Of a DNA stretch of 64,000 nucleotides, positions 3,434 through 17,010 are shown in pieces. Source of the stretch: a virus; the IMG/VR virus record IMGVR_UViG_3300030060_004613, positions 1 through 64,000 of that record; one strand, given 5' to 3'. The notes under the pieces are model-generated. The model saw only the letters and a program-made list of their open reading frames with translations. It was not told where the DNA came from and did no database searches. The position numbers were made by a program, and so were the translations under genes. Within the stretch, counting starts at the first letter, position 1, and each line of letters opens with the position of its first letter.

Positions 3434-3741
3434 GGAGCTACATTGGATTGTGGGGTCGGTTGGACCCTGGACAGATTCAGATCGATGTCTTCTTCTACGA
3501 CAACGGTTCATCCGTGGCGAACTACCTCATCACCGACAAGATTGAGAAGAACCTGCGTACTGTCCGCAGGGACCTCAGCGACGCTGGCTTCGAGCAGAAG
3601 GGAGGCTTCGAGGAGGAGCAGTCCTGGCTGTACCCTGGCAAGATGACTCACATCGAGACTCACATTCGATGGATAAACAGAGAGACGAACCTGTACCAAC
3701 AGGTGCATGTCAAGTGGCTCGAAGATCTGGAGGAGAAGTGA
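3430..3741 (+). CDS. Hypothetical early protein, 103 aa
   Basis: Not recognised. The ATG overlaps the previous stop and follows GAGGTGAGGA. The sequence looks like a compact alpha/beta fold with many aromatic residues and no zinc or membrane signature. Its stop overlaps a GTG start at 3738, so the cluster 3104-3920 appears to be one coupled operon ending in the iteron region. Confidence 0.65.
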   Translation: MRSYIGLWGRLDPGQIQIDVFFYDNGSSVANYLITDKIEKNLRTVRRDLSDAGFEQKGGFEEEQSWLYPGKMTHIETHIRWINRETNLYQQVHVKWLEDLEEK

Positions 3742-3920
3742 GCAACCCAAGTGACCTGGAAAGAATCGTGGCTCGGACCCTGGAGCACTGGCTGCGGCGG
3801 AGCAATCCGTCCAGCCGTGTCTCCAAAACCGTCCAGAAAACCAACGACAAGATATCGGAATCATTAGAGTCTGAAACTAAAAGCGTCCAGACCACTGATC
3901 GAAAGCGTCCAGTCTGTTAG
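3738..3920 (+). CDS. Small ORF carrying iterons, 60 aa (GTG start)
   Basis: GTG at 3738 overlaps the previous stop and follows GGAGGAGAA, so I prefer it to the upstream in-frame ATG at 3669, which lies inside the neighbouring gene. The N-terminal 20 residues look helical; the C-terminal half is Ser/Thr/Lys-rich and is essentially the translation of the CCGTCCAG iterons, much like the linker of the replication initiator at 10483. It may be a degenerate fragment of such a protein, or just an ORF across the origin. Confidence 0.45.
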   Translation: MSNPSDLERIVARTLEHWLRRSNPSSRVSKTVQKTNDKISESLESETKSVQTTDRKRPVC

Positions 3921-3986
3921 GCAACCGTCCCGACAAACAGATGCAAGTGATTGAAATAAATGGAAAGCAAAAACGAAACCGTCCAG
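3804..3986 (+). repeat. Iteron cluster I (AAACCGTCCAG-type)
   Basis: Copies of an 11-bp element at 3804-3814, 3826-3836, 3880-3890, 3902-3912, 3922-3932 (variant ending CCG) and 3976-3986. Successive spacings are 22, 54, 22, 20 and 54 bp, so most lie close to the same helical face. The same element occurs four times inside the replication initiator gene near 10.7 kb. Direct repeats next to an AT-rich block are the hallmark of an initiator-bound replication origin. Confidence 0.75.
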
Positions 3987-4030
3987 GCGGACGACTCTAA
4001 AGTTTTCCTCTCCCCCATACCCCCTCTCCT

Positions 4031-4080
4031 ATCAAATGCTAATTACTGTAGAGTAATTAATTATAATTATAATATCTATT
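4031..4080. other. AT-rich block, candidate DNA unwinding element
   Basis: About 50 bases with very few G or C, beginning 45 bases after the last iteron. It contains a perfect inverted repeat (TAATTACT gtag AGTAATTA, 4040-4059) and a TTATAATTATAATAT stretch. Together with iteron cluster I and the C-rich tract 4008-4029 this looks like a replication origin, with this block as the melting site. Inference from layout; no experimental support here. Confidence 0.55.
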
Positions 4081-4084
4081 CCCA

Positions 4085-4213
4085 ATGAATAAGATCCAAT
4101 ACCAAATGATCAATACCCCATTGGAGAGCCAAGCTCATCCTGTTTGGGACGTGCTCGCCTATGCTTTCATCGCTCTTGCGCTGCTGACCACAGTGCTTTC
4201 AATGAGGGACTGA
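4085..4213 (+). CDS. 42-aa single-span membrane mini-protein
   Basis: ATG at 4085 opens a 42-residue ORF with a polar N-terminus and a clear hydrophobic helix at about residues 20-39 (Ala, Leu, Ile, Val, Phe), ending in a short charged tail. No good ribosome site is visible upstream (the region is AT-rich), which lowers confidence. A second internal ATG at 4106 also lacks a site. If real, it is a small inner-membrane protein adjacent to the origin. Confidence 0.4.
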   Translation: MNKIQYQMINTPLESQAHPVWDVLAYAFIALALLTTVLSMRD

Positions 4214-4329
4214 GAGCCTACCGAAAAAAACTTTCACCTTTTCTGTCCGCCGAAGACACCTGACCTCGTCTTCTCAAACAGGGAAGGGAACAACCCAACC
4301 CAACAACAACACCAGAGGCAACCAACCTT

Positions 4330-4692
4330 ATGAAACTTTCTCTTGATTTTATTCTTTCCCAAGACGACTACGAGGGCATCGTAGACATGGCGGGCATGAG
4401 CGGCGGCATCGGCTACTGGGCCATGGCCGGATGCATTGACAACACAGGCGAGGAAGGCGCGTACAAGTCCTACCTCGTCATTGATTCTGATGATGAGGAG
4501 TCATCCTACAGCTTGACGCGAGACAAGGTAGAGCAAGCAATCGCTCAGTTGTTTTTGAAGCGGTCACTCAACGGCTACTACATGAGTGCCATTGATATGT
4601 TGGTGCTCCAGGGTGAGTCTTGCAACGTTGGCGCAGACATCGCTGACGCTATCATCCAGCAGGCTTGCTTTGACGAGGTGATCTATGGGTGA
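4330..4692 (+). CDS. Hypothetical early protein, 120 aa
   Basis: Not recognised. The ribosome site CAGAGGCAACC sits 14 bases before the ATG, a longer spacing than elsewhere, after a leader that contains an A-run, a TGTCCGCC element and CAA repeats (4222-4325). The protein is acidic, Gly- and Ser-containing, with an even alpha/beta look. Its end overlaps the next gene by eight bases. Confidence 0.65.
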   Translation: MKLSLDFILSQDDYEGIVDMAGMSGGIGYWAMAGCIDNTGEEGAYKSYLVIDSDDEESSYSLTRDKVEQAIAQLFLKRSLNGYYMSAIDMLVLQGESCNVGADIADAIIQQACFDEVIYG

Positions 4693-10299: not shown

Positions 10300-10478
10300 T
10301 GGGCTTTACAGATTCCCCTCCATTTTGTAAAACCGAGGGCTGTGGCAACGTCCCACAGGCTTACATCAAGGGAAGCTTTAGATGCTCATCGTGTGCAGTA
10401 AAGATCCAACTCAACACCATCAATAGAATTGAGATCAACCAACACGGTGTTGCTAAGTATCAAGGAAAGGACCAATGA
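10296..10478 (+). CDS. Zinc-finger mini-protein, 60 aa
   Basis: Cys residues at 11, 16, 30 and 33 in the pattern C-x4-C ... C-x2-C fit a single zinc site. Start after GAGAAGAA; two tandem ATGs at 10296/10299. Its stop overlaps a Met-Lys-Lys-stop mini-ORF (10475) that in turn overlaps the initiator start at 10483. Confidence 0.65.
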   Translation: MMGFTDSPPFCKTEGCGNVPQAYIKGSFRCSSCAVKIQLNTINRIEINQHGVAKYQGKDQ

Positions 10479-10482
10479 AAAA

Positions 10483-11421
10483 ATGAGCGAGCAGCAGGGA
10501 CCAACCGGAGTTTGGCTTGACCTCGAACTCTGGAACAGCATCAAAAAAACAACAAACCAACCCTGGCCGCTCGCTTTGGCTCAGTTGGATCTTGGCTTTG
10601 TAGAACAAGAGTACGGCGCTCTTCTTTCTCGATCCCAGTTGATGGAGCGATGGGGACTCAGTGAAAGAAAAGTACGCACCGTCTTGAGTCGCTACAAGAA
10701 AAAACGTCCAGACTCAAATCATAAACCGTCCAGTATTGCGCCCAGCAAAGTGACGCAAGTTGCTGGAATCACTCCAGTTGACACGGCAACACCGTCCAGG
10801 CCAGGGTTAAAAACCGTCCCGAAATGCACCGACGTTTTCGACGAGTCTGTACAGACTATTTTCCGTTGTTGGGAGCAGCTTCAGTTTGATAGAACTGGTC
10901 GCCACAACAAGCTCACTAAGGGTAGAGAGAGAGTTCTTCGGTCGGCTCTCAAGAGTGGTCACTCCGTCGATGACTTACAACTTGTGATTCGAATGGCCTT
11001 TGAGTATCCAGATGGCGACTTCATGATCGATTCTTGGAGAACGCAGGGCTACATGGACATCACGAACCTCCTGAATCGAGAGAAGATAGACCGCAATGTC
11101 ACCCTCGCAGCAGAGCGGTGGAAAGGAAATGAATGGTCATTCAGTAAACCAAAGGTCATCACCTTCGATGCAAAGTATCAGAAACTATGGGACCACCTAC
11201 AGTTCTTACTCGGAGCATACGGTTCAGAGCCAGACAGCTTGCATAAGAACCCCCGTGTCAGTCAAGCAATGTCCAGTGCAGTACGAGCCATTGGGGGATG
11301 GCGGATGCTCGGGAGCTTAAGGTCCGGTCGAGACATGGAAAAGGTACGACAAGACTTTCTTTCTGAAGTCCAAGGCAACATCATCAGGATTCAACAACAA
11401 ACCAAACAACGGAGCATGTAA
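10483..11421 (+). CDS. Replication initiator-like protein, 312 aa
   Basis: The N-terminal 90 residues form a winged-helix-type domain (SRSQLMERWGLSERKVRTVLSR). A Pro/Ser/Thr linker at about residues 74-115 is encoded by the iteron DNA. The C-terminal part has the helical pattern W..LQFDRTGRHNKLT...RERVLRSALKSG and FMIDSWRTQGY seen in phage replisome organisers. It sits directly before dnaB (TAATG overlap). By layout it is a lambda O-type protein: binds iterons, melts the origin and recruits helicase. The ATG at 10483 is chosen over an in-frame TTG at 10429. No Walker motif, so it is not an AAA+ initiator or loader. Confidence 0.75.
   Translation: MSEQQGPTGVWLDLELWNSIKKTTNQPWPLALAQLDLGFVEQEYGALLSRSQLMERWGLSERKVRTVLSRYKKKRPDSNHKPSSIAPSKVTQVAGITPVDTATPSRPGLKTVPKCTDVFDESVQTIFRCWEQLQFDRTGRHNKLTKGRERVLRSALKSGHSVDDLQLVIRMAFEYPDGDFMIDSWRTQGYMDITNLLNREKIDRNVTLAAERWKGNEWSFSKPKVITFDAKYQKLWDHLQFLLGAYGSEPDSLHKNPRVSQAMSSAVRAIGGWRMLGSLRSGRDMEKVRQDFLSEVQGNIIRIQQQTKQRSM
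10701..10821 (+). repeat. Iteron cluster II inside the initiator gene
   Basis: The 11-bp element AAACCGTCCAG occurs at 10701-10711, 10723-10733, 10789-10799 and 10811-10821 (last copy ends CCG), with a degenerate copy at 10767-10777 (AATCACTCCAG). The spacings are multiples of 22 bp (22, 44, 22, 22). This parallels lambda, where the origin lies within gene O, and the element is the same as in cluster I at 3.8-4.0 kb. Confidence 0.75.
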
Positions 11422-12812
11422 TGGGACCGACCCCCCCAAAGAGCATTCAAAGCGAAAAGGTAGTTCTCGGCGGACTACTTATGGAGCCTTCCCTCATCAA
11501 CGATGTGGTTGCCGAGGTGGAAGCAGACGACTTTGCTCAACAACAACACCGAGATCTGTTCAAGCTAATCAAGTCATGGGTAGCAAAAGGCAAGCACGTT
11601 GACTCTGTTATGGTAGTGGAACATATCCGAGCCACTGGCACGCCCGCGAATCTCGACATTATGTACGTCATCTCTTTGCCAGAGGAGTGTGGAGCTACAG
11701 CAACTGTTCCTTTTCATGCCAGGAACGTCCGTGAAACAGGTATACGTCGCAGAATGTTCGAGGCTTCATCTGCTTTAGTAAGCAACGCATCGGATACCAG
11801 CCTTGAGATTGATGAGCTTATTGAGCAAGGCCAAAGGGAATTGCTGGAGATTGCTGGCAGGCAGCGTGGAGATGATTGGTTTGAGGGGCCACAACTTGTC
11901 GAGAGGGCTCAGGACCGCTGGGAACGCCTGGTAGAGATGAAGATGAAAGGCGAAGTAGCTGCCTTATCTACAGGCCTGGTGGCTGTAGACAACGTCCTTA
12001 GTGGACTGCATCCGGGCTTGAACCTGTTGGCTGCTCGACCATCGATGGGAAAGACTGCGATGGCTTTGAACATCACGATGTCGGCTTTACAGCAAAACGT
12101 GCCTGTTGCTTTCTTCTCATTAGAAATGAGCGCCGACCAACTGGTAGATCGAATGGCCTCGGCTCTCGCTAAGGTAAGTGCCTGGAACATCAAGACCGGG
12201 TCTTTGAAAAGCGAGGAGTGGGGAAGGTTGGAGAATGAGGCTCTGGACTTTTTGCACAACGCTCCTTTGTTCGTATCCGACAAGGCCGGTGTTTCGATCT
12301 CCAAGATTTCTGCACAGGCTCGGAGGTTAAAGTCTAAGGAGCCAAACCTTGGACTCATCGTCATTGACTACCTCCAGCTTATTCGACAGCCAAAGGCTGA
12401 GAGTATGGAGCAGTCTGTCTCTCAAGTCTCCAGCACACTCAAGGTCATATCCAGAGACCTCAACGTACCTGTCCTCTGCTTGGCCCAGTTGAACCGTGGT
12501 TGTGAGCAAAGGTCCAACAAGAGGCCAATGCTCTCTGACCTCCGAGGCTCCGGCTCACTGGAGCAGGACGCTGATGTGGTCATGTTCCTGTATCGACATG
12601 CCTACTACGATGACCGTGCTGATCCTACGGATGCTGAGGTAATCGTTGCAAAACACAGGAGTGGACCCACGGGTGCGGTCAACGTCACCTGGGATGCGAA
12701 CAATCAAAAGTTTCAAGACAAGGACACTGGTCCTAAGTTTTCTATGGTGAAGGCCGCCATGAGGACCAGGAGAGACATCGACGACGAGGACTCCGAGCCG
12801 TCTTGGTTTTAA
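11421..12812 (+). CDS. dnaB: DnaB-like replicative helicase, 463 aa
   Basis: Full-length DnaB: an N-terminal helical domain (QSEKVVLGGLL near residue 10), a linker, and a RecA-type ATPase with Walker A ARPSMGKT at about 206-213, Walker B LIVIDYLQL near 312-320, an AQLNRG sensor and the DLRGSGSLEQDADVV arginine-finger/H4 region near 375. Length is normal for the family. It unwinds DNA 5' to 3' as a ring hexamer at the fork. No separate loader or primase is visible nearby, so primase is either host-derived or outside the window. It is the last gene of the long early operon; a terminator follows. Confidence 0.95.
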   Translation: MGPTPPKSIQSEKVVLGGLLMEPSLINDVVAEVEADDFAQQQHRDLFKLIKSWVAKGKHVDSVMVVEHIRATGTPANLDIMYVISLPEECGATATVPFHARNVRETGIRRRMFEASSALVSNASDTSLEIDELIEQGQRELLEIAGRQRGDDWFEGPQLVERAQDRWERLVEMKMKGEVAALSTGLVAVDNVLSGLHPGLNLLAARPSMGKTAMALNITMSALQQNVPVAFFSLEMSADQLVDRMASALAKVSAWNIKTGSLKSEEWGRLENEALDFLHNAPLFVSDKAGVSISKISAQARRLKSKEPNLGLIVIDYLQLIRQPKAESMEQSVSQVSSTLKVISRDLNVPVLCLAQLNRGCEQRSNKRPMLSDLRGSGSLEQDADVVMFLYRHAYYDDRADPTDAEVIVAKHRSGPTGAVNVTWDANNQKFQDKDTGPKFSMVKAAMRTRRDIDDEDSEPSWF

Positions 12813-13567: not shown

Positions 13568-14092
13568 CTACGACAGGCTGCCTTTGTCGAACTTCAAACC
13601 ATACATAGCAATGCACGCAGCATCAGCAATCCCGTCGTGAGGTTTTCTTTTTTTGCCAGGAGTCAGGTCTAAACTGGGGATTCTTTGTTTACAGATAAGA
13701 ACAGCCCTGCCTTTGCCCACGCCGGGTGCATCACGGAGTATGGTTTTCTGCCAGGTTTTTGGATGAACGATCAAAAGAGGAACGTCCAGCACACCAAGAA
13801 TGCCAAGCCAAAGTCCGTAACCTACGCCGATGCTGAACATCGATGTTCCCCCCTGGCCTGGACGAGCCTGTTGTTTCTCGACCACCGCCATCTTGATTCC
13901 CACAGTCGCATGAAGCTCAGTCAGAACCTTGCCCATAGCGTTGGAATCGTACTCTCTTCGAGAGCCCTTACCGATTGGAATCGTAAAGTTTTCTCTGGTG
14001 AGCATAACTTTTCTTACTATTCCCTCCTCATCGAGAGCAACGATGGCTCCGTCTTTGCCGGGGTCGATTCCCAAGTAAACTCCACCCATCAT
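13568..14092 (-). CDS. RuvC-like Holliday junction resolvase, 174 aa
   Basis: RNase H-fold nuclease: GIDPGKDGAIV with the first catalytic Asp at residue 10, a VVEKQQ strand with Glu near 72, and HDGIADAACIAMYG near 147-160 with the last acidic residues. This is the pattern of phage and bacterial RuvC-like enzymes, which cut four-way junctions symmetrically, needed before packaging of branched replicative DNA. Starts in the stop of the XRE gene (ATGATG overlap), so repressor and nuclease share a transcript. Host-type RuvC is about the same length. Confidence 0.8.
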   Translation of the reverse strand: MMGGVYLGIDPGKDGAIVALDEEGIVRKVMLTRENFTIPIGKGSRREYDSNAMGKVLTELHATVGIKMAVVEKQQARPGQGGTSMFSIGVGYGLWLGILGVLDVPLLIVHPKTWQKTILRDAPGVGKGRAVLICKQRIPSLDLTPGKKRKPHDGIADAACIAMYGLKFDKGSLS

Positions 14093-15283: not shown

Positions 15284-16222
15284 TTGTCTAAACCAGAAGG
15301 TTGGTTCGAAGCTCGTAGAGCGGGTCTCGGTGGCTCTGACATCGCCGCTGTACTTGGCTTGTCTAAGTGGCAAAGCCCTATGGATGTTTGGTCTGCAAAG
15401 CGCGGACTGTCAGAAGAAGTTGTTGAAACAAACGCAATGCGCCGGGGTCGCCTTCTGGAGTCAGCCATTGCAAATTGGTATCAGGAGGAAACAGGACTTG
15501 AGGTTTTGGATGGCAATGAAATGCCAATTGTAGGACCAAAACCTTTCATGCTTGCTTCCCCCGACAGGTACGTCAGTGCTGGGAAAACTCGGTTCGGGTT
15601 GGAAATAAAAACGGCGCGTAGCGTTGACGGCTGGGGAGATGACCTTGGCTCTGGCGTACCTGTTTACTATGCCACTCAAGCAGCATGGTACATGGCTTGC
15701 ACAAACATTGACCGATGGGACTTTGCTGTGTTGTTCCTCGTGAACGATGAGTTCCGTCGCTACACTTTGATTCGAGACAAGAAGACCGAGAAGAAGCTGG
15801 TCAAGAAGTGCGGCGACTGGTGGAAGAGGCACGTTGTTGGAGGAGAGCCTCCACCTATCGATGGATCAACAGCGGCGGACAAATTTTTGCAGGGTAAGTA
15901 TGATAATCCAAATGAAGAGTATCGACTGGCTGTCCCTGAAGAAGAAGAACTAATTTTTGAACTGGACGATATTCAGAACGAAATCAAAGCACTCAAAGAA
16001 AAAGAAGCACTATTCAAAAACCAACTCAAAGAAAAGATTGGGGAGAACGCAGGACTTAGAGGAACCTTTGGAACTGTAAGTTGGAAAATGTCTAACGGAC
16101 GAACAAGCTTAGACTCCAAATCTCTTAGAAAAGCGCACCCCGAGATAGCTAAAGAGTTTTCTAAAACCAGCGAACCAAACCGAATCTTTCGAATGAAAGT
16201 TCAACACAAGAGAGGCAACTAA
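15284..16222 (+). CDS. YqaJ/lambda-type exonuclease, 312 aa (TTG start)
   Basis: PD-(D/E)xK nuclease of the YqaJ viral recombinase family. Visible motifs: an early GGSDIAAVLGLS helix, RRGRLLESAI with a catalytic-site Glu, ASPDRYV with the metal-binding Asp, and the L-E107-I-K109 core. A coiled helical C-terminal part (residues 225-255) is typical. It degrades one strand of a DNA end 5' to 3' for strand annealing by the RecT protein encoded next (TAATG overlap). No ATG is possible near the start; TTG at 15284 follows AGGAG by six bases. Confidence 0.92.
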   Translation: MSKPEGWFEARRAGLGGSDIAAVLGLSKWQSPMDVWSAKRGLSEEVVETNAMRRGRLLESAIANWYQEETGLEVLDGNEMPIVGPKPFMLASPDRYVSAGKTRFGLEIKTARSVDGWGDDLGSGVPVYYATQAAWYMACTNIDRWDFAVLFLVNDEFRRYTLIRDKKTEKKLVKKCGDWWKRHVVGGEPPPIDGSTAADKFLQGKYDNPNEEYRLAVPEEEELIFELDDIQNEIKALKEKEALFKNQLKEKIGENAGLRGTFGTVSWKMSNGRTSLDSKSLRKAHPEIAKEFSKTSEPNRIFRMKVQHKRGN

Positions 16223-17010
16223 TGGCCAAGAACGAAATCGCAAACAAGCCGCCAACCAAGATGGAGAAGTTTAAGGATCTCATCAACAACAAGATGAAAG
16301 ACCAAGTAGCATCCATCTTGCCCAATCATTTAACTCCAGAGCGCATGTGCAAGGTTCTTATTGTAGAGGCCAGCCGGAATCCGAAGCTAATGGAATGCAC
16401 CAGCATCTCCGTAGCTGAATCGGTCATGCTGTCGGCGCAGCTTGGCCTGGAGCCAGGAGGCACGCTCGGCCACATCTACTTCATTCCTTATGGGAACAAG
16501 TGTACGCCAATCATTGGCTACAAGGGATACCTGGAGCTTGCTCGACGCAGTGGCCAGGTAGCTCGCCTCGATGCCCGTGTTGTCTACGAGGGCGAGAAGT
16601 TTGAGGTAAGCGCAGGGCTCCACCCTAACATTGAGCACAGTGTTCGAGGAGACGTGGACCGTTCAGACGACAAGATTGTGGCAGCCTACGCTGTTGCTGT
16701 TCTCAAGGACGGGTCCTCTTACTTCGAGGTGCTGTGGAAGGTAGACATCGACAAGGTTCGTCGTCGGTCCAAGGCTGGACGTAGCGGGCCATGGGTAGAC
16801 GATTACTCTCGGATGGCTCGCAAGAGCGCTATCCGTGCTCTGTTTAACGGCGGCACTGTGCCTATGTCCTTCGAGCTTGCAACGGCTGTCTCTTCAGATG
16901 GAGATGATCCTCACGCAAAGATGCCTCCTATCGACATTACGCCAATCGTTGGCGAGGATGAACCCAAGGAGGTAAATGGAATGAGCGACCTTGGTGCGGC
17001 CCTGGCATGA
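16222..17010 (+). CDS. recT: RecT-family ssDNA-annealing protein, 262 aa
   Basis: Clear RecT/Bet-like signature: an N-terminal LPNHLTPERMCKVLIVEA helix, SVAESVMLSAQLGLEPGG, LGHIYFIPYGNKCTPIIGYKGYLELARRSG, and the SGPWVDDYSRMARKSAIRALF segment. The protein coats and anneals single strands made by the upstream exonuclease. Length is normal for the family. The stop overlaps a zinc-ribbon mini-gene at 17007. Confidence 0.95.
   Translation: MAKNEIANKPPTKMEKFKDLINNKMKDQVASILPNHLTPERMCKVLIVEASRNPKLMECTSISVAESVMLSAQLGLEPGGTLGHIYFIPYGNKCTPIIGYKGYLELARRSGQVARLDARVVYEGEKFEVSAGLHPNIEHSVRGDVDRSDDKIVAAYAVAVLKDGSSYFEVLWKVDIDKVRRRSKAGRSGPWVDDYSRMARKSAIRALFNGGTVPMSFELATAVSSDGDDPHAKMPPIDITPIVGEDEPKEVNGMSDLGAALA

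Follow-up and report, generated by a model that had tools for sequence, protein, structure and literature searches.

Gene context and the two iteron clusters

The window analysed here is a 64-kb stretch comprising bases 1-64000 of a 69,314-base IMG/VR virus record. This record looks near-complete and circularly permuted with respect to one of its relatives, G005, because both of its ends map to nearly the same position on that genome. The early genes lie on the plus strand at the left, and the minus strand carries the terminase, capsid and other structural genes; neither Rfam families nor tRNAs were detected in the 64 kb. The plus strand encodes a putative replication initiator of 312 residues (10483..11421), directly upstream of the gene for a DnaB-type replicative helicase (11421..12812, plus strand; Pfam DnaB_C, 1.1e-91; PHROG, 7.8e-101). 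Further genes encode a RuvC-like Holliday junction resolvase (13568..14092, minus strand; PHROG, 5.4e-26), a RecE-like/YqaJ exonuclease (15284..16222, plus strand; profile matches) and a RecT-like annealing protein (16222..17010, plus strand; PHROG, 2.9e-71). An ArdC-like antirestriction protein with a zincin-like peptidase domain is encoded at 1819-2829. The sequence TGTCCAGGTCTTG is found on the minus strand in three copies in the early region (at 2231, 3060 and 5566), two of which immediately precede small early genes, and is a possible early leader or regulatory element.

The assignment of 10483..11421 as the initiator gene is putative and draws on weak family matches (E 0.0019), a modest structure model and gene order. 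The PHROG 'replication initiation protein' profile gave a weak match in eight of nine family members, and dnaB follows this gene in the relatives too. The predicted structure (pLDDT 69.6) has an N-terminal helix-turn-helix region, a disordered linker at about 75-115 and a helical C-terminal part. No Pfam lambda-O match to the initiator was obtained at HMMER sensitivity, and a comparison of the predicted fold with the PDB gave no convincing match, the top hit, a lambda P chain, reaching a non-significant Z of 5.4. Relatives were gathered from viral contigs with DnaB and initiator queries; one of these is a 16-kb fragment (G004), and two others, G015 (59 kb) and G008 (33 kb), are possibly incomplete. 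Neither the cultured phages nor genome_contigs yielded a relative of the initiator.

Six iterons occupy 3804..3987 on the plus strand, with CGTCCAG cores at 3808, 3830, 3884, 3906, 3926 and 3980. The spacings of 22, 54, 22, 20 and 54 bp described in an earlier note on this DNA were matched exactly (3808-3986). Six sites within 200 bp are far beyond chance, the maximum per 200 bp being three in 200 simulated first-order Markov windows of 64 kb. They are direct repeats of one putative initiator site at roughly helical spacing, the arrangement that characterizes an iteron-type origin. The homologous cluster in G005 and G003 has the identical spacing, 22-54-22-20-54, but the core CGTCCCAA. Between iterons 2 and 3 lies the gap motif CGGAATCA (3856..3863, plus strand), and a degenerate copy, TGAAATAA, is found at 3952. 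The form TG[GA]AATCA is present in a large gap in 9 of the 11 clusters examined, for an expectation of ∼0.04-0.08 per genome.

This cluster, referred to below as non-coding, is not wholly intergenic, since its first four iterons lie inside the 3' tail of a small ORF (3738..3920, plus strand; GTG start, 60 aa) and encode its C-terminal tail. The N-terminus of the ORF is conserved in three relatives, and in its counterparts in G003, G005 and G006 the stop falls after the second iteron. Another small ORF of 42 aa (4085..4213, plus strand; ATG at 4085, stop at 4211-4213), with a similar ORF in G005, starts directly 3' of the AT-rich block described below. No consensus DnaA box (TTWTNCACA) was found near the non-coding cluster; DnaA boxes are present in many iteron-type origins, not in all, and do not strictly define them. 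GC skew was dropped for placing the origin, since its extremes coincide with gene-strand switches; they track gene orientation and do not point to the cluster.

A second array (10705-10815) was found 6.9 kb away, as the earlier note had stated. It falls in the linker of the putative initiator (10701..10822, plus strand), with cores at 10705, 10727, 10793 and 10815, and its spacing of 22, 66 and 22 bp is the same in relatives. Its gap motif, TGGAATCA (10764..10771, plus strand), begins 59 bp past the first iteron, an offset also observed in the in-gene clusters of G003, G005, G008 and G011. The in-gene iterons occupy different reading frames. Synonymous codon conservation was 73% at the iterons versus 42% in the rest of the initiator gene, and none of 288 rotated placements reached 0.73. 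As the iteron codons keep their synonymous bases, the DNA itself is under selection, beyond the protein.

Both clusters, and no further motif clusters, are present in the window's record and in G003, G005, G006 and G011, and the G004 fragment has both too. In G001, G002, G007, G008 and G014-G016 the in-gene cluster alone was detected, in records that are short or possibly incomplete, so the absence of the other cluster from them may be only apparent. The core is CGTCCAG here versus CGTCCCAA in most relatives, with the same core in both clusters of a genome (some copies in relatives read TGTCCCAA or CGTCCCG), and the gap motif, like the core, is common to both clusters. The more distant G011 (initiator identity 38%) has shifted to spacings of 11-bp units in both clusters. 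Because core and spacing change jointly in the two clusters, one initiator very probably reads both.

With respect to G005 and G011, the initiator-dnaB block (window 10429-12812) is inverted in genomes that are otherwise collinear (G005 reversed); in G003 and G006 the two clusters are arranged as in G005. The non-coding cluster keeps its place while this block flips, and therefore the orientation of the two sites to each other need not be fixed.

The AT-rich block and the pyrimidine mirror repeat

The AT-rich stretch reported beside the non-coding cluster is real. The block at 4040..4079, a candidate DNA unwinding element, is the most AT-rich 40-mer of the window (88% AT). In the window, G003, G004, G005 and G006, an AT peak lies 233-252 bp past iteron 1 of the non-coding cluster and ranks in each among the most AT-rich 40-mers of the stretch; G011 has a weaker peak (72% AT) at its non-coding cluster. 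Nothing comparable was detected beside the in-gene cluster in any genome examined, which bears out the earlier statement that just one cluster has a melting-type region. The perfect 8-bp inverted repeat noted at the same place is present (4040..4059; TAATTACT-GTAG-AGTAATTA) but not conserved, being found in none of three relatives. Such a repeat arises in 4-8% of randomized AT-rich 50-mers; because of this chance rate and its absence from the three relatives, it was rejected as a functional element and given no weight.

Between the last iteron and the AT-rich block there is a further feature, absent from the earlier note: a homopyrimidine mirror repeat (4004..4032, plus strand; TTTCCTCTCCCCC-ATA-CCCCCTCTCCTAT). 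No other perfect mirror repeat in the window is as long as its core. Over 13 triads the tract is compatible with a purine-motif triplex, as a homopurine-homopyrimidine mirror repeat obeying the triad rules, which is the sequence criterion of purine-motif H-DNA. The order of iterons (with the gap motif between them), pyrimidine mirror repeat and AT-rich block is conserved in relatives, and the homologous tracts of G005, G003 and G006 are mirror-symmetric too, with different sequences.

Triplex-compatible runs were scanned on both strands (at least 11 triads, loop of 1-7, either half as third strand). The tract gave runs of 13, 14, 14, 14 and 13 triads in the window's record, G011, G005, G003 and G006, respectively, and in each of these five records it is the sole site of runs of at least 11 triads and hence of the longest run. 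In the six pairwise comparisons among the four nearest genomes, the arms differ by 3, 3, 3, 1, 2 and 2 mirrored double changes, and no one-sided arm differences occur among the window, G005, G003 and G006; length changes are symmetric by construction, because one-base differences in length were assigned by the script to equivalent points of the two arms, and substitutions are unaffected by this.

Could this symmetry have arisen by chance, given that the pyrimidine stretch is of low complexity? The tests are not independent, as they compare related genomes, and the 19-base core, TCTCCCCCNNNCCCCCTCT, matches at least 119 stretches in a large collection and so is not rare on its own. However, within-tract shuffles reached the symmetry score in 0.03-0.3% of cases, and 60 simulated 70-kb genomes gave a maximum of 11 triads; we consider a chance origin improbable.

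The interior non-mirror pairs, including two in G011, have T at the left and A at the right. Purine-motif triplexes allow the triads A(T)AT and GGC (PMC4666352), and the left T/right A pairs are compatible with these rules if the half on the AT side is the third strand. Polarity of this kind was rejected as a general rule: across all extended families from the core scan the counts were 19 to 11 (p = 0.20), and for this reason it is claimed for origin-associated tracts alone. The distance from the last iteron to the tract centre takes values of 29, 37-38 and 49 bp, about one helical turn apart, a weak hint only.

We tentatively propose that the tract may be kept able to fold into a triplex, a hypothesis backed by the covariation of its arms. 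That it is conserved for some other reason, because the C-run pair forms a G-quadruplex or i-motif or because a protein binds there, with no triplex involved, is a serious if somewhat doubtful possibility. The paired C-runs are of equal length (5/5, 6/6, 4/4 and 5/5), which would also fit quadruplex-type folds. Quadruplex folding explains neither the mirrored C/T changes in the flanks, however, nor the left T/right A interior pairs. As a feature shared by the tracts, a G-quadruplex was discarded, four runs of at least three G occurring solely in the G006/G004 version.

Among H-DNA mirror repeats, a triplex has been proposed at the SV40 origin (PMC13125764). The tract described here resembles that proposal as a homopurine-homopyrimidine mirror repeat beside a replication origin; it differs in that mirrored changes preserve its symmetry from genome to genome, the setting is a probable phage iteron origin and the triplex is putative. 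The open-access literature yielded no paper joining triplex, iterons and replication origin, and a mirror-repeat tract appears to be new for phage origins.

The likely origin and possible roles of the in-gene cluster

Because the non-coding cluster is the sole cluster with a melting-type block, we read it as the origin. The sequence comparisons make it likely that replication starts within 3804-4080 and that the in-gene array is an accessory initiator-binding site. The initiator would bind the iterons of both clusters and would wrap the non-coding one, straining the DNA to its right. The tract and the AT-rich block would then open, and the DnaB helicase encoded by the next gene would be loaded there. 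More tentatively, the mirror repeat might aid opening by folding: in an intramolecular triplex of the purine motif, the pyrimidine strand would stay single-stranded over its AT-side half, next to the AT block. The fuller proposal is that a triplex-forming tract, kept by mirrored changes, may be a working part of the origin in this phage family, may recur in the origins of unrelated phages and may open the DNA beside the AT block, or poise it, for helicase loading; we regard this as plausible and stop short of calling it probable.

A role of the non-coding cluster as an operator or promoter, through which the initiator would control early genes, was also considered. It is possible because the cluster overlaps one small ORF and precedes another, and AT-rich DNA can be promoter DNA. 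However, no sigma-70-type promoter was found at 3700-4400, an operator needs far less than six phased iterons with a conserved tract and an AT block, and the cluster stays put despite the inversion of the initiator-dnaB block in the window. An operator in place of an origin is thus most unlikely.

The earlier note had offered a choice between two origins and an origin plus a titration or handcuffing site. Paired conservation of the clusters and the joint change of core and spacing support the latter; support for two equal origins is lacking, as no genome examined has an AT-rich block at its in-gene cluster. Since it is without a melting block, the in-gene cluster is more likely to be an accessory site (for titration, looping, self-regulation or as a fork barrier) than a second start point.

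The closest alternative plan is that of phage SPP1, whose initiator is G38P and whose origins, oriL and oriR, lie ∼12-13 kb apart, one within the initiator gene, the other non-coding, with an AT-rich block at both (PMC6316719, PMC3485210). Applied to our phage, the in-gene site would start theta replication and the non-coding site would act later, as origin or fork barrier, leading to concatemers. The layout agrees at the level of plan: initiator-binding sites lie in the initiator gene and in non-coding DNA several kb away, the non-coding cluster here partly overlapping a small ORF. Like SPP1, the phage encodes a DnaB-type helicase, a resolvase, an exonuclease and an annealing protein; the last three would suit such a scheme, as would the apparent circular permutation of the record. 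By contrast, the AT-rich block is found here at the non-coding site only, and we therefore consider two working origins unlikely. The mirror-repeat tract between the iterons and the AT block is a further difference from SPP1. On sequence grounds, the locus is best described as a well-conserved candidate phage origin with a presumed accessory in-gene site, SPP1-like in plan minus one SPP1 feature.

The locus also shares traits with the lambda ori in gene O, namely iterons placed centrally in the initiator gene, iterons adjoining an AT-rich block and strand-asymmetric purine/pyrimidine DNA at the opening site (PMC5043065, PMC7466680). In lambda, iterons and AT block both lie inside the initiator gene, whereas here the gene holds the iterons without the AT block, the melting block belonging to a separate cluster 6.9 kb away; moreover, the longest triplex-compatible run near the lambda ori is 9 triads. 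The first opening of origin DNA is called an open question in the title of one review, in which the AT-rich strand asymmetry of lambda is regarded as paradoxical, since it stiffens DNA (PMC5043065). The arms that change together across the present genomes offer a structural hypothesis open to direct testing. For probing the purpose of the second site, the family also supplies natural variation in how two sites for initiator binding are laid out, the initiator-helicase inversion being one case.

Some iteron plasmids have a second iteron locus besides the origin, P1 incC/incA being an example. The present arrangement is similar in combining origin iterons with a separate iteron group that could titrate the initiator or pair with the origin. 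It differs in belonging to a phage genome, in the position of the second group within the initiator coding sequence and in that a DnaA box was not found.

Triplex-compatible tracts in unrelated phages

Among the matches to the 19-base core that were listed, one family (L074, L127, L111 and others) reaches 38 triads. The tract-bearing gene of this family matches replication initiation proteins (L074, 1.7e-9; L125, 3.5e-11) and adjoins a DnaB gene, and the DNA past the tract is 82-90% AT. In L074, the tract lies at 2674-2752 and AT-rich DNA then follows within the putative initiator gene. Another member, L077, has 33 triads and just 40% AT past the tract, and interrupted members have 20 (L115) and 10 triads (L125). 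Comparison of L125 with L127 revealed both mirrored and one-sided changes.

Other matches lie near replication genes of different kinds. A tract of 13 triads in L070 lies past many in-frame iterons, in an unassigned ORF adjoining a DnaC-like helicase loader. In L068, repeats are followed by a one-break tract in a DUF6291 gene adjoining SSB, and the tract of L061 is in an unassigned ORF adjoining a weakly matched primase. Several further long-run matches are simple repeats or lie away from replication genes. That similar tracts recur in a few unrelated phages, within putative initiator genes, is suggestive and no stronger, because the window's own core served as the seed of the scan.

L049 was rejected as a relative; it is an unrelated phage with an array of its own. 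At 10775-11950 it carries 14 copies of TGTCCC, spaced 10-22 bp apart in an ORF of 391 aa, which looks like another in-gene iteron array.
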